DNA of 64,000 nt, from positions 2,604,001-2,668,000 of the forward strand of contig NC_088936.1 in assembly GCF_033473495.1 (NCBI RefSeq), in the 5' to 3' direction. Source of the DNA: Cercospora beticola (Eukaryota; Ascomycota; Dothideomycetes; Mycosphaerellales; Mycosphaerellaceae). The notes beneath the pieces are model-generated. The model saw only the letters and a list, made by a program, of their open reading frames with translations, made no database searches and was not told where the DNA came from. Numbering within the stretch: the stretch's first letter is position 1; each line of letters starts with the position of its first letter. A program made the position numbers and the translations under genes. Positions 44,581 through 51,179 of the stretch are shown here, one piece after another.

Positions 44581-47127
44581 TCAAGCCTCGGGATCTGGGA
44601 CATCTTCCACCTCTACCGCTTTAGCCTTGCCCTTGCCACTGTAGCTTTGACTCTGCTCGGGATCGTCCTGGTTTGCACTTCGAGTGATCGGTGACGAGGA
44701 GTTGACTGACATCGCTGACTGCTTCACCTCGGGCTGCGAATCTTGCTGAGACTGGTCGTTGAACGACCAACCGCTATTATTCCATGGTGTCTGCGTTTGT
44801 GTCTGCGAAGGCGCTTGATTGGGCGTCGTACCAGATACGAGCTCTCCTGGTCCTGGCGAGCCGGCCGCACTCCGGCCACGTGTGGATGTGTTCGGAAGAG
44901 AAGCCGAGTCACTGGAGCTTGCAAAAGCAGCCGCCCATTTACGACCTGCGGCTTCGCCTCGTTCTTCAGCAGCACGCAACACAGCATCATCGGGTGACTG
45001 CGTAATTGATGGGTTATCTTGCGCTGGTAAAGTATTTGTCGGCACGAAGAGCGGCGATCCTCGCTCGTCAACTGGACCTTGTGGATCTGGGTTACTCGGT
45101 TGACCTTCATTCTGCGCCACGGATGCGGGAGCCTGCGAGCTGACCATCTCAGATTGAGATTGAGCAGACGCTGAATCCTGAGCGCGCGATGCGGCTTGCG
45201 CTCCTCCGCCAGTGTTGGAGACACGTGGCCCCGATAAGCCAATGCTCTGCTGTGGAGCAGCAAGATTCATCGCGGGCTGCAGCGGAAGGACAGTCCAGCC
45301 CTCTGGTAACACCATACCTGGCGGAAGGTGCTCGTGCCCGCTGCTCATCTGCTGACTCGGATTGCCGTGCAGCTGACTGGGGAGCGGCTGATGTTGCGGC
45401 GAGAAGCCTGGCATCGGGTATCTGGTTATGCCAGTAGGCGGAGCCGAGATGTGTTGTGAACGTAGTCTTGCCAATTCGACCTCCATCATGCGCAAGGTGT
45501 TCAGTTGCTGTTGCTCGATGCCGAGATTGTGGGCTTCCCGCACGATTCTTTGTTCGAGCTGGAGCAGTTGAATGTGCGTTGGCACTTGCGATCCTGCGTT
45601 CCACGGTCGTCCAGCAGCTGGCTGTTGCTGACCCGCGCCGCCTGCGACGGGATTTCCTGCTGGGTCCAATGCTTGCTGTACAGCTTGCGCGTCGCCGTTT
45701 CTAATCTGGTTAAGGACGTTCTGTATTTGCCCTCGCGGCGCGTTCACCATTCCTATGCGCAGTGGCCCGAGATTGAATATTCTGCCTCGCGGTCTTGGTG
45801 GCTGCTGTCCAGGCTGGCCATTTTGAGCTGGAGCAGCGGCATTTCCTGCGTTAGCAGGCGTTGCTGCTACCACAGGTCTTCGGCATGTTGGGCATACTTG
45901 CTGTCTCTCCAGCCATGCCTTTAAGCATCGCAGATGCAGAATGTGTCCGCAAGGAAGCTTCTTTGCGCGCATTCCTTCATCCCTCCTTCGTGCTGGTGCT
46001 GGAGCTGGTGCGGCAGCTGGTTGTCCCTCTGCACCCGCGACCGGTGCAGCAGCTTGTGGCTCTCCTTCAGCCCAGGCGACCATCTCCTCTCTGCACACAA
46101 TACATGCATCGCCTCTGATTTCTGCCGTCGTAGCGTCTGGGTATCTCGTATTCATGTCGCTCGTTGCTTTCCGGTACGCCATATAGTCCGTCACTCGCTT
46201 GCTGAAACTGGCAAATGTCATGTAGACGTCCCTCATGATATGCATGGGAAGCCCGTTGAAGGTGACGCTGACCGTGAAGAAGAAGATGTAGATGACCAGC
46301 TTGACAAAGTCTGTGACCACCTCCACGACGAACAGCACCCTTCTCTTGTCCTCCCATCCCGGCACATCGACTTCATTTTCGTCCACATCAATCGGCTCAT
46401 CGAATGTCGGGATCTCTCTATCCTCTTCCCTCGCCTTCGCAATCGCTGCCGCTCTTTCCGCTTTGATCTCCTCTTTTCTCTGTTCGATGGCGGCGGTCGT
46501 CTGCTCTTTCGTCACTTTGATCTCCCAAACCGCAAGGCCATATCTGATGGCTGTAAACAAGCTGAAGACACATAGAATGGCAAATTCAAAGGTGAATATG
46601 ACCATCATGCCGGGCCTCGGGTCCTCGATCACCACTTCCAAGCAGTATTTGAACATGCCGGTCGCAAATGCCAATGAGATAAGCAAGCTCGTGGCGAGTC
46701 GTGCATGGAACAGTTTATTATTGGCCCCTCCCATCATTTGTCCCTGCTCCAACACGTCTACTCTTCCTTCTCCGATCCAACCCCACACCTTGCCTGCGAG
46801 GAGGAGCACAAACATGACTAGTAATCTGCCGCCGACGTCCTCTCTAAAGCTCGGCATAGCGAGCAGAGTGTCGAGCACAGCATACCAGGCCTTTTCGCTA
46901 AGCTGTTCGATTTCGATTGGTCGGAGGGGCCCATAGAGCAGGCGCTGGAGGAGGTAGAGGAAGGAGGTGCTTAACAAGAGCAGCAGGTTCGTGAGAATGA
47001 GTAGGCAGGCATTGGATTGCGAGAGATAAACGGTTGCCGAGTAGAAGTTCGGTCGCTGCGAGAAGGCCTTTAGAAGACATGCTGCCGCCGCCAAAGTGCT
47101 GGCGCCAGCGTAGTATGCGAGCCGCAT
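44581..47127 (-). CDS. HRD1: ERAD E3 ubiquitin ligase Hrd1 (synoviolin)
   Basis: Single exon, 848 aa, ATG at 47127. Residues 1 to about 310 hold the multi-spanning ER membrane part ([20 protein letters not shown], then [20 protein letters not shown] and further segments) with the family motif ADRLLF-like [15 protein letters not shown] cytosolic RING-H2 finger lies at about residues 341-413: CIVCREEM ... [28 protein letters not shown]. The loop between the second and third zinc ligands holds an extra Ala/Pro-rich insert of about 35 residues. The rest is a disordered Gln/Pro/Ser-rich tail ending with a basic [14 protein letters not shown] segment. Hrd1 retrotranslocates and ubiquitinates misfolded ER proteins, serving the many secreted proteins such a fungus makes. 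Confidence 0.95.
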
Positions 47128-47570
47128 CGTTGTGTCGTGTCGAGAAGTCTTTGAATGGTGTCTGATGCGCTCCGTTCGGGTTCACTTTCGCTCGATGGCT
47201 ATGATGTGGACACGTGTAAGCGCTCCATGTTCGTGACCATCAGTCAAGAGGTCCGTCTGAATGATTGCCGAATGTTGGTTGAATCTGCTCGTACGGCGTC
47301 GATGCTTCGCGCAGGCAGCTGCTTCGGTTGGCACGTCAAAGGAAAGCTGGCGATCGGCAGCTGCAACGGCCATGTCATCGTCCCGAGCCAACCGCTGGTC
47401 CGTGCACGAGACGCGACTTCTTCACTTAGTGCAACTGGCCTCGATGACCCAATCAACGTAGGTATGCACACGTAGACTGATCAAAACAGATTTCCGCAAT
47501 GCTGGAAGAACAGAGACTTCAATTCATGCAACTCTCAAGAGACTACAGTAAACAAGAATGCTACAAATGC
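47128..47570. other. Intergenic, HRD1 promoter side
   Basis: About 440 bp upstream of HRD1 and downstream of the GPI-protein gene. Several ORFs of 65-105 codons overlap in four frames and none has support. Confidence 0.4.
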
Positions 47571-48688
47571 TCACAGCATGGCTCCTCCCACGGCCATGAG
47601 GATAACGCCAAAGCTGGCTCCGTGTACAAAGGCACCACCCGTTGCAACAGCAGGCTGTGACTCTTGTGGCCGCTCTTCGGCAGGAGTGGGCTCGGGAGTC
47701 TTCTCCGCGTTGCTGGACGACTCGGTCGTGCTCTTTGGTGAGTCGTTGTTCGGCTTGGACGATCGCGACGTTGGTACCTCGGTGCTCTGGATTGGCACTG
47801 CAGTGCTCTTCGCAGTCGTTGGGGCTGGTGTTGGTTGAGACGAAGTCGTAGCAGCAGACGGCGAGGTCTCTGCCGACGATGCGCGAGAAGTGGGATACGT
47901 TGGAAAGACCGGTGGCTCACTTGATTGGCTGCTGGACTTCTGAGACGGCGAGATTTGCGAAGTGGACTGAGTTTTGGGCGCAATGATGCACTCTTGCGGC
48001 GTAGTTGGGCAGATCGTTTCGTGGTAGATCAAGGTCTCAATTACCGTGACGGTGGCCGGACGTGCCTCACGAACAGCAAGCGTGCTGGAGGCTTGGAATC
48101 GTCAGAATTGCGAAGCTCATCATGGCACAGTAGGCTCACTCACCGGATTTGCAGTAGTTGAGGCAACTGTCGAGTATGCTTCCGTCGGCGAACCAATCCC
48201 TGCATCGCTTTTCGCAGCTCCCGGTCGGCGTCGTCGTAGAGTCTAAGGCAGCAGCCTCAAGTGCGAGAGGAGGGCCTCCAGCATGTCAGCATTGTCAGAG
48301 TCGCGAATGTCGCAGTATGGTTGCTCACCACCACTGCAGTACTTGAGGCAACCCCGAAGTCGTTTGTCACCAGTGAACCGATCCCTGCATTTCTTGTCGC
48401 ATTCGCTGATTGGCATTGTCGTAGATTCCAAGGCTGCAGTCTCAAGTGCAAGAGGGGGATGTGGCCATACTGGCAAAAGGGCTGGAACCTGTCAGTATAG
48501 GATGAGTCGCGGATGCAATAGCGGGCCCACTCACCAAGTTGGCAGTCCTTCAGGCAACGGTCAAGTGGCTTTCCACCCGGGAATTTTTGCCTGCATTTCT
48601 TTTCGCAGCGTGAAGCCGGCGCTGTCGGAGAGTCTAGAGCTGCAGCCCCAAGTGCGAAAGCCGCCGCGATGATGCTGAATGTGTGCAT
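47571..48688 (-). CDS. GPI-anchored protein with three CX3C-X12-CX3C hairpin modules
   Basis: Exons 48535-48688, 48329-48433, 48144-48242 and 47571-48091 give 879 nt, 292 aa. Introns are 101, 86 and 52 nt, all phase 1. The first exon has a signal peptide (MHTFSIIAAAFALGAAAL) and module 1 (CEKKC-x12-CLKDC). Exons 2 and 3 each carry one module (CDKKC-x12-CLKYC and CEKRC-x12-CLNYC). Exon 4 has a TVTVIETLIYHETICPTTPQ segment, a long Ser/Thr/Pro linker, and a hydrophobic C-terminus (GASFGVILMAVGGAML) typical of GPI attachment. The spacing CX3C-X12-CX3C is that of alpha-hairpinin folds, helix-loop-helix peptides held by two disulfides. Likely a wall-displayed protein; partner unknown. No adjacent gene explains it. 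Confidence 0.85.
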
Positions 48689-49565: not shown

Positions 49566-49636
<71 letters not shown>

Positions 49637-50012: not shown

Positions 50013-50294
50013 GTTGGCGATGCGGAGTTGCTGCGAGTCGAGGTTGTTGTGGGATAGAGAGAGAGGTGGGAAGCCCAATTTCAAGTGCTGGCACTTGCCT
50101 TCACTTCAGCATTCGCGGCGGGGCCTGCCGAGATCCGTGATCCGCTGACGTTTGTGTTTACACAGCAAACAACGTTCTTTCCATCTTGTTGCCTGCTTGA
50201 AGTTTTGCAACTTCGTCGCCGCACGCTCTCTCTTGTGCCTCTTGTCGCCGTCGCCCATCACATACAGCATCCCGATCAGAAGTCCGCCGCCACC

Positions 50295-51179
50295 ATGCAG
50301 CTCAACACGATCCTCGCGGCGCTGTTCGCAGGCGCCGTGGTGGCCGACAGCGCTTCCATCAACTTTGGTGCGAAATACTTGTCCAATTGTCACTGTGTGC
50401 GGGAACTGACAACGGGACTCCAGATGCGGCCATCACCAACGGGGCGACTGTCGTCTACTCGACTCGCGTCCAGACCGTTTTCTCCTGCGGCCCAGATGTC
50501 ACCGACTGCCCAACGCTCACGTCCGTCATCGACAAGACTACGACCATCTGTCCAGTCACCGCATCTCTCGGCATTTCGACTGAAACGACTGCTTCCTCTT
50601 CCGGCGGCTCGACCGTAACTGTCACCAAGACCGCCGCCGTCTCCTCCACTGCTGTCTCCTCCACGGCCGTCTCTTCCACGGCTGCTCCGTCGACTGCACC
50701 GCCAAAGGTGCCCGTGCCACTACATACGACCCTCGGATCTCCCGAGACAACTAGCACAGTCGCAACCACTACCGTTGTCAAGTACACCTCATTCGTCTTC
50801 AGCACGGTGACCGCTCCGGCCAACTTCTCGAGCACTATTAGTGGCTCGACCATTTCTGCCAACAGCGTAAGAGTCCTCCCAGAACCTGCGATGGGACAGT
50901 TGTGCTGAAATCTTTTAGACTATCGCGCACACTACCGTGTCCGGAAGCATTGGTGCTCCGACTAGCTCGCTGAACGGCACTTTGTCGACGGTAAGCCTTG
51001 TCCTGCTGTTGCATGGAACAATGGTTCATTGCGAGATGCACAGAGCTGACACATTCTAGGCCACCGCTCCAGGTACTAGCCCGTCTCAATCGATCGTCCC
51101 ATATACTGGCGCCGCCGCTGGAACATCAAGCTCGCTTCTCTTGGTCCTGGTCGCGGCCGCTGCGGCGTTCCGCATCTAA
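50295..51179 (+). CDS. GPI-anchored Ser/Thr-rich cell wall protein
   Basis: Exons 50295-50367, 50424-50866, 50919-50990 and 51060-51179 give 708 nt, 235 aa. All three introns are GT-AG (56, 52 and 69 nt). The ATG has good context (CACCATGC). A signal peptide (MQLNTILAALFAGAVVADSA) is followed by TVVYSTRVQTVFSCGPDVTD, CPTLTSVIDKTTTICP, a small 4-cysteine region. Then come Ser/Thr/Val repeats (AVSSTAVSSTAVSSTA) and N-glycosylation sites. The C-terminus is small-residue-rich followed by a hydrophobic tail (TSSSLLLVLVAAAAAF), a GPI signal. The layout (Cys front, Thr/Ser stalk, GPI) is that of fungal wall mannoproteins. It is not a CFEM domain by cysteine count. Confidence 0.85.

Follow-up and report, generated by a model that had tools for sequence, protein, structure and literature searches.

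Gene structure and the public gene model

The window, which is the whole stretch of 64,000 nucleotides of DNA that was analysed from Cercospora beticola, the cause of leaf spot in sugar beet, carries a gene for a triple-module protein on its minus strand (48688-47571). From its N-terminus, the encoded protein has a signal peptide, then three modules of the form CX3C-x12-CX3C, a stalk rich in S/T and a hydrophobic tail that is GPI-like (Table 1). With introns of 53, 53 and 52 nt, the window agrees letter for letter with the public protein RHO25_002975 (P0001, C. beticola, 319 aa). An earlier sequence-only reading of the same DNA, which named coordinates but no strand, ended introns 1 and 2 further downstream and gave a protein of 292 aa, which RHO25_002975 exceeds by 27 residues. 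In the public model, these residues belong to linkers, ALLPVWPHPPLALETAALESTTMPISE and GPPLALEAAALDSTTTPTGS, that are coded by signal-peptide-like DNA.

Two of the claims of that reading are borne out directly. The three modules are encoded as it described them, and the strict module pattern, found three times in the protein, occurred three times in none of 20,000 composition shuffles of residues 18-150; 83 of the 20,000 gave at least one occurrence. The donors that it placed after the modules are also there, with GTGAG in phase 1 after every one, and the 292-aa frame is open.

The databases name both P0001 and its C. berteroae relative P0002 'WSC domain-containing protein'. The WSC profile did not match the 292-aa version (E 10) or P0002 (E 0.01), and a Pfam profile search gave nothing meaningful for the triple-module protein. 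The four locus tags of the gene and its relatives were mentioned nowhere in the literature searched, and no paper on the protein was found, judged by title, among those listed from the Cercospora hairpin, GPI and effector literature. Among the papers listed on C. beticola annotation, no title dealt with the calling of the RHO25 genes, and the part of PMC7513301 consulted added nothing useful.

Table 1. Features of the triple-module gene, with positions in the window.
Feature	Position	Strand	Basis or remark
Whole coding region, ATG to stop, 319 aa	47571..48688	-	spliced translation identical to RHO25_002975
Exon 1: signal peptide, short pro-segment, module 1	48535..48688	-	public model
Signal peptide coding part, residues 1-17	48638..48688	-	predicted, from hydropathy and by eye only
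Module 1, CEKKC-x12-CLKDC	48536..48607	-	translation and repeat comparison
Intron 1, 53 nt, GTGAGT...CTGAC...CAG, phase 1	48482..48534	-	public model; end in the sequence-only reading, 48434
Exon 2: linker 1 and module 2	48329..48481	-	public model
Signal-peptide-like copy in linker 1 (GCACTTGAGACTGCAG...), exonic reading	48402..48449	-	shuffle-tested similarity
Module 2, CDKKC-x12-CLKYC	48330..48401	-	translation and repeat comparison
Intron 2, 53 nt, GTGAGC...CTGAC...GAG, phase 1	48276..48328	-	public model; end in the sequence-only reading, 48243
Exon 3: linker 2 and module 3	48144..48275	-	public model
Signal-peptide-like copy in linker 2 (GCACTTGAGGCTGCTGCC...), exonic reading	48217..48264	-	shuffle-tested similarity
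Module 3, CEKRC-x12-CLNYC	48145..48216	-	translation and repeat comparison
Intron 3, 52 nt, GTGAGT...CTGAC...AAG, phase 1	48092..48143	-	identical in both models
Exon 4: TVTVIETLIYHETICPTT segment, S/T-rich stalk, hydrophobic tail, stop	47571..48091	-	public model
C-terminal hydrophobic tail, GPI-signal-like	47574..47645	-	best 11-residue hydropathy 2.46

Repeats in the modules, linkers and introns

A comparison of the region with itself, a check proposed with the sequence-only reading, gave a 148-nt direct-repeat family with its reference copy at 48122-48269 and two further copies, each 70% identical to it, at 48307-48454 and 48513-48660. The three copies are spaced by steps of 185 and 206 nt. 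The DNA before each module had been called homologous, and this is well supported: when the signal-peptide DNA was compared with the DNA before module 2 and with that before module 3, the score was reached by 0/2000 dinucleotide shuffles in each comparison. Furthermore, each of the three units has an in-frame GCACTTG at a distance of exactly 48 nt ahead of its module.

The introns had also been said to share sequence. They were cut at the public acceptors, and the intron ends were held fixed in the shuffles. The three look like copies of one intron, and the likeness stands out for the pairs 1-2 and 2-3, where 17 and 8 of 2000 shuffles, respectively, reached the score; for the pair 1-3, 122/2000 did so, and the likeness of that pair is therefore weak.

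Linkers 1 and 2 differ at 15 nucleotides, 9 of which are third codon positions (p = 0.03). Between the signal peptide and the two linkers, the differences at codon positions 1, 2 and 3 are 9, 5 and 8 for one and 8, 2 and 5 for the other, with no excess at the third position.

Relatives of the triple-module protein

A protein search (404 candidates scored, E 0.01) returned five proteins: P0001 of C. beticola, P0002 of C. berteroae, P0003 from a metagenome, P0004 of C. zeina (BST61_g2640) and P0005 of C. zeae-maydis (CERZMDRAFT_88910). The same five were found in a profile search (best 8000 candidates, E 10), and three of them in a second protein search (18 candidates scored, E 1). Beyond Cercospora, save for the one metagenome protein, the family was not found among the matches listed at E 0.01, 1 and 10. 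A search of the genome itself for paralogues gave four matches at E 10 among the best-scoring candidates, all of them exons of the triple-module gene. Such a homologue search had been proposed for both copy number and intron presence; it supplied the copy number, which is three modules in C. berteroae and one in C. zeina and C. zeae-maydis.

All three modules of P0002 fit CX3C-x12-CX3C and share 16, 22 and 21 of 24 residues with their C. beticola counterparts. P0004 and P0005 resemble the C. beticola protein in having a similar signal peptide, a VTVIETL(I/V)YHETICPTT segment, an S/T-rich stalk and a hydrophobic tail. Unlike it, they have one module, which is spaced CX3C-x9-CX4C and is followed by KS(D/A)HPPLAVR and then by the VTVIETL(I/V)YHETICPTT segment. 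The hairpinin-like spacing of the triple forms may therefore have come with the duplication, or may have been lost in the single-module relatives.

In P0003, exon 1 is read on, unspliced, into intron 1. The reading starts in the frame of the C. beticola gene, and a frame change follows within the intron, ahead of the branch site. From there it runs collinear into the signal-peptide-like DNA, with 18 of 21 residues identical. A change of length is thus tolerated in the intron, and none is seen in the covered part of linker 1.

Splice sites and the status of the linker DNA

Is the signal-peptide-like DNA before modules 2 and 3 exon or intron? The sequence-only reading made it intron: introns 1 and 2, of 101 and 86 nt, would end in the duplicated signal-peptide DNA and take their acceptors from it, CTGCAG in the first and TTAG in the second. 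In favour of this reading are the open 292-aa frame, with every intron in phase 1, and the acceptor types, since CAG and TAG are common and GAG is rare in the portion of PMC5677156 that we used. However, several observations speak against it. The DNA in dispute lies downstream of earlier acceptors, it is kept as exon in the identical public protein RHO25_002975, and the linkers are conserved in frame in C. berteroae, which retains 14/16 of the disputed residues of linker 1 and 8/11 of those of linker 2, at a level much like that of its modules. The collinear run of P0003 into linker 1 and the third-position excess between the two linkers point the same way. Furthermore, C. berteroae has Leu-Lys where the second proposed acceptor (TTA G|AC) sits, with Lys for Asp at residue 114. 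Since Lys codons never begin with G, this proposed AG is impossible at that place in C. berteroae. We consider intronisation of both copies highly improbable; more likely, the signal-peptide-like DNA has remained coding sequence.

The distances from the branch site bear on the same question. In all three public-model introns, the A of CTGAC is exactly 10 nt from the acceptor G, so that the earlier acceptors of introns 1 and 2 stand where that of intron 3 does. If the linker DNA were intronic, the distance from CTGAC would be 58 nt in intron 1 and 43 or 52 nt in intron 2, which would be unusual for this genome. Candidate introns were scanned for in 264 kb of the same genome, with the gene masked, using strong motifs and YAG acceptors, and the reversed sequence served as the control. 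The branch-acceptor distance was 5-20 nt in 24 of 31 motif-defined candidates versus 13 of 27 in the reversed sequence (10/11 versus 3/9 and 38/49 versus 21/43 under two other donor settings), and at least 40 nt in 3/31 and 2/27, respectively. Candidate lengths of 45-65 nt were found for 16/31 versus 4/27. Looser YAG scans exceeded the reversed control both at 8-13 nt and at 45-54 nt. With any AG allowed, the excess in branch-acceptor distance over the reversed sequence was small, 24 versus 18 at 8-10 nt and 28 versus 27 at 11-13 nt, the totals being 115 and 158.

Between nt 40 and 115 after the donor, the only in-phase AG of the four in intron 3 is the AAG at 10 nt, which both models use; therefore the gene already needs a purine-AG acceptor at that distance. 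Three of five AGs in the same range are in phase in intron 1 (48482, 48470 and 48434). The earlier CAGs are 10 and 22 nt from the branch site, the second at 48470-48472, and both would have to be skipped if the first linker were intron. In intron 2, two of four are in phase (48276 and 48243).

The public acceptors of introns 2 and 3 are of the rare types GAG and AAG; purine-AG acceptors make up about 5.7% in Fusarium core genes, according to the part of PMC5677156 consulted. Past the branch site of intron 2, the first YAG is the TAG chosen by the sequence-only reading, and the YAG rule of the motif-defined scan, and of two of the three settings of the looser scan, would therefore itself pick it. 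Because of this TAG and the rare GAG acceptor, the exonic status of linker 1 is firmer than that of linker 2: we regard linker 1 as very likely exonic and linker 2 as likely so. The P0001 and P0002 models, which both keep the linkers, may come from automatic gene calling and share a bias.

One alternative is a mixed arrangement, with the public end for intron 1 (48482) and an intron 2 extended to the TAG at 48243; the second signal-peptide copy alone would then be intronic. The TAG is in phase as well as being the first YAG. However, it would lie at the long distance from CTGAC given above, C. berteroae lacks its AG and keeps linker 2 in frame, and linker 2 is retained in both P0001 and P0002. 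We find the mixed arrangement very unlikely. Another possibility is that both acceptor sets are used, giving long-linker and short-linker forms of the three-module protein. The in-phase AGs of introns 1 and 2 would allow this, but chance alone puts one AG in three in phase and the TTAG is not conserved in C. berteroae; we judge such isoforms unlikely. The exonic reading of both linkers is used below. The repeat-derived AG sites beside the signal-peptide copies are a warning that intact exons can look intronic.

Origin of the three modules

As a whole, the data are best explained, with good probability, by a predicted secreted triple-hairpin protein whose gene grew by in-frame tandem duplication and whose linkers are exonic. 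The tandem duplication of a signal-peptide-plus-module unit, already proposed from the sequence, is supported by the 148-nt repeats, the shuffle tests and the single-module relatives. Probably, one module became three by in-frame tandem duplication of a segment comprising the signal-peptide tail, the module, the 53-nt intron and the start of the next exon. The two breakpoints would lie within the signal peptide and, just past the intron, at the head of the next exon. Each linker would then be a hybrid of two former parts, the exon after the intron (HPPLA...) and the tail of the signal peptide (LALGAAALDSPT...). Every duplication would have carried a complete intron, branch site and acceptor included, and therefore nothing needed to become intron.

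The linker sequences are consistent with this mechanism. The sequence is ...WPHPPLA + LETAALESTT in C. beticola linker 1 and GGHPPALEAVALKSTT in C. berteroae linker 2. As judged from the aligned proteins, a linker resembles the start of the exon after the intron in its first half and the signal-peptide tail (FALGAAALDSPT) in its second. Microhomology at the duplication junction is plausible; the junction was read from the proteins of the other named species. Since the modules of C. beticola and C. berteroae pair by position, the duplications would predate the split of these species. We infer that the single-module state is ancestral, although the relatives with one module may have lost the others secondarily.

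Secreted modules whose exons were duplicated in tandem along with phase-1 introns are a general pattern. The C. beticola gene would follow it in that module and intron were copied together and the frame was kept. It would differ from the general case in that the copied segment begins inside the signal peptide, and therefore the signal-peptide tail was reused as linker. The proposed duplication is also of the same kind as known tandem duplications across an exon-intron boundary. Unlike in these, whole introns would have been copied here with donor, branch site and acceptor, and no new splice site would have been needed. The locus thus offers a readable record of a secreted module multiplying, in which a piece of targeting sequence seems to have turned into a linker inside the mature protein.

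Predicted fold and comparison with plant α-hairpinins

The modules are predicted to be disulfide-stapled helical hairpins. Structure prediction of the module, proposed as a check with the sequence-only reading, gave two helices: in the one-module model, made from the alignment of the three modules, residues 12-20 and 25-35 form a helix-turn-helix with a mean pLDDT of 78.8 and block means of 86-93 over residues 11-36. The full-length model is poor (pLDDT 42.1), and each of its three modules is in helix-turn-helix.

The one-module model gave two PDB matches at E 10. The first, 2plx_B (E 4.3, TM 0.76 on the target), is the trypsin-inhibitor peptide of Veronica, and the second (E 5.8) is a designed helical peptide. 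For the full-length model, there were 17 weak PDB matches, none at E 0.001. Twelve of them are unrelated larger proteins. The remaining five, the only chains shorter than 60 residues, comprise two chains of walnut Jug r 2, a cashew vicilin leader, VBP-8 and BWI-2c, which we take to share the hairpinin shape; VhTI and the vicilin-leader hairpins presumably belong to the α-hairpinins. None of the five hairpinin matches is significant alone, and jointly they support a hairpin shape for the predicted modules. A viral fold library gave 43 matches at E 10 and none at E 0.001.

The cysteine pattern can be compared with that of the plant peptides. According to the part of PMC11591084 consulted, the α-hairpinin 4C motif is CX3C-X(4-20)-CX3C; all three modules of P0001 and all three of P0002 fit it, and the single modules of P0004 and P0005 do not. 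The α-hairpinin disulfides are C1-C4 and C2-C3 (PMC7191063, in the portion used here), and the symmetric cysteine spacing of the modules (13+34 = 17+30) would permit this pairing. The same portion of PMC7191063 describes tandem hairpinin precursors with 5-7 modules in wheat (Tk-AMP-X) and 12 in chickweed. The C. beticola protein is like the plant α-hairpinins (BWI-2c, VhTI, EcAMP1, Tk-AMP-X and the vicilin-buried peptides) in its CX3C-Xn-CX3C pattern, with n = 12, in its two predicted antiparallel helices and in having several modules per secreted precursor. It is unlike them in being fungal and in carrying a GPI-like tail and an S/T stalk. Also, a phase-1 intron follows each module in C. beticola, whereas the wheat hairpinin genes are without introns in the portion of PMC7191063 available to us.

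It is somewhat unlikely, but to be reckoned with, that the cysteines pair across modules or bind metal, and that the likeness to hairpinins is one of CX3C spacing only. The PDB sequence search gave no significant match (best 2lqx, E 0.13), as was also the case for the fold searches, and the single-module relatives depart from the spacing. In addition, there is a weak Vanabin-2 profile match (E 1.8), and the BWI-2c sequence match spans two half-modules. Against this, helix-turn-helix is predicted for all three modules in the full-length model and for the single module in the module model, the five short chains among the 17 weak PDB matches are all plant hairpinins or vicilin-leader hairpins, and the first of the two module-model matches is the Veronica inhibitor.

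We therefore retain the hairpin as the predicted fold, and of the α-hairpinin analogy drawn earlier the predicted helix-turn-helix stands, as a prediction with no significant E-value behind it. Common descent with the plant α-hairpinins found no support, as sequence homology was not detectable in the PDB and protein searches; a very remote common descent is possible. Since common descent was not found, and since the second CX3C is broken in the single-module relatives, we call the modules hairpinin-like at most and do not class them as α-hairpinins. The triple-module protein may work like a hairpinin. Judged by title, none of the papers listed on hairpinins and fungi (15 of 74) deals with a fungal hairpinin. 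An array of CX3C hairpins combined with a GPI-like tail in a fungus is put forward here as a prediction. Should the predicted fold be right, a shape that is mainly known from plant defence peptides would have a fungal representative as well, in the form of a hairpin array.

Predicted surface display and possible function

The best 11-residue hydropathy is 2.36 for the signal peptide and 2.46 for the C-terminal tail. The values for the linkers are 0.69 and 1.05; the linkers are thus far less hydrophobic than the signal peptide and are therefore unlikely to act as signals. The stalk contains 44 S/T and 19 P among its 113 residues. These features would fit a protein that is secreted and O-glycosylated and that is held at the cell surface by a likely GPI anchor.

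What might the function of such a protein be? The signal peptide would send the protein out, and the stalk would display three copies of one small hairpin. With three copies, a surface that binds or shields would gain avidity or reach toward the plant apoplast. As the function, we tentatively propose that the fungus presents a small hairpin multivalently on its surface, for binding or shielding. A bolder proposal is that a hairpinin-like fold arose independently in this plant-pathogenic fungus and is displayed as a GPI-anchored triple array. The array might mimic or counter the hairpinin defence peptides or the proteases of the plant, and the linkers, recycled from signal-peptide tails, would also carry in-phase secondary acceptors for isoforms that differ in linker length. 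We give this proposal little credence.

Neighbouring sequence

On the same strand, the window has a long open frame at 44581-47181 with a match to synoviolin/Hrd1-type E3 ubiquitin ligases (PF25563, E 3.8e-81) and a RING finger. An S/T-rich open frame on the plus strand, 50201-50908, contains ...DKTTTICPVT..., which resembles the HETICPTT segment of the triple-module gene. It had no Pfam match at E 0.01, and its product is possibly another surface protein. A (GA)n run of 64 bases lies at 49568-49631, near minus-strand open frames of a neighbouring gene.
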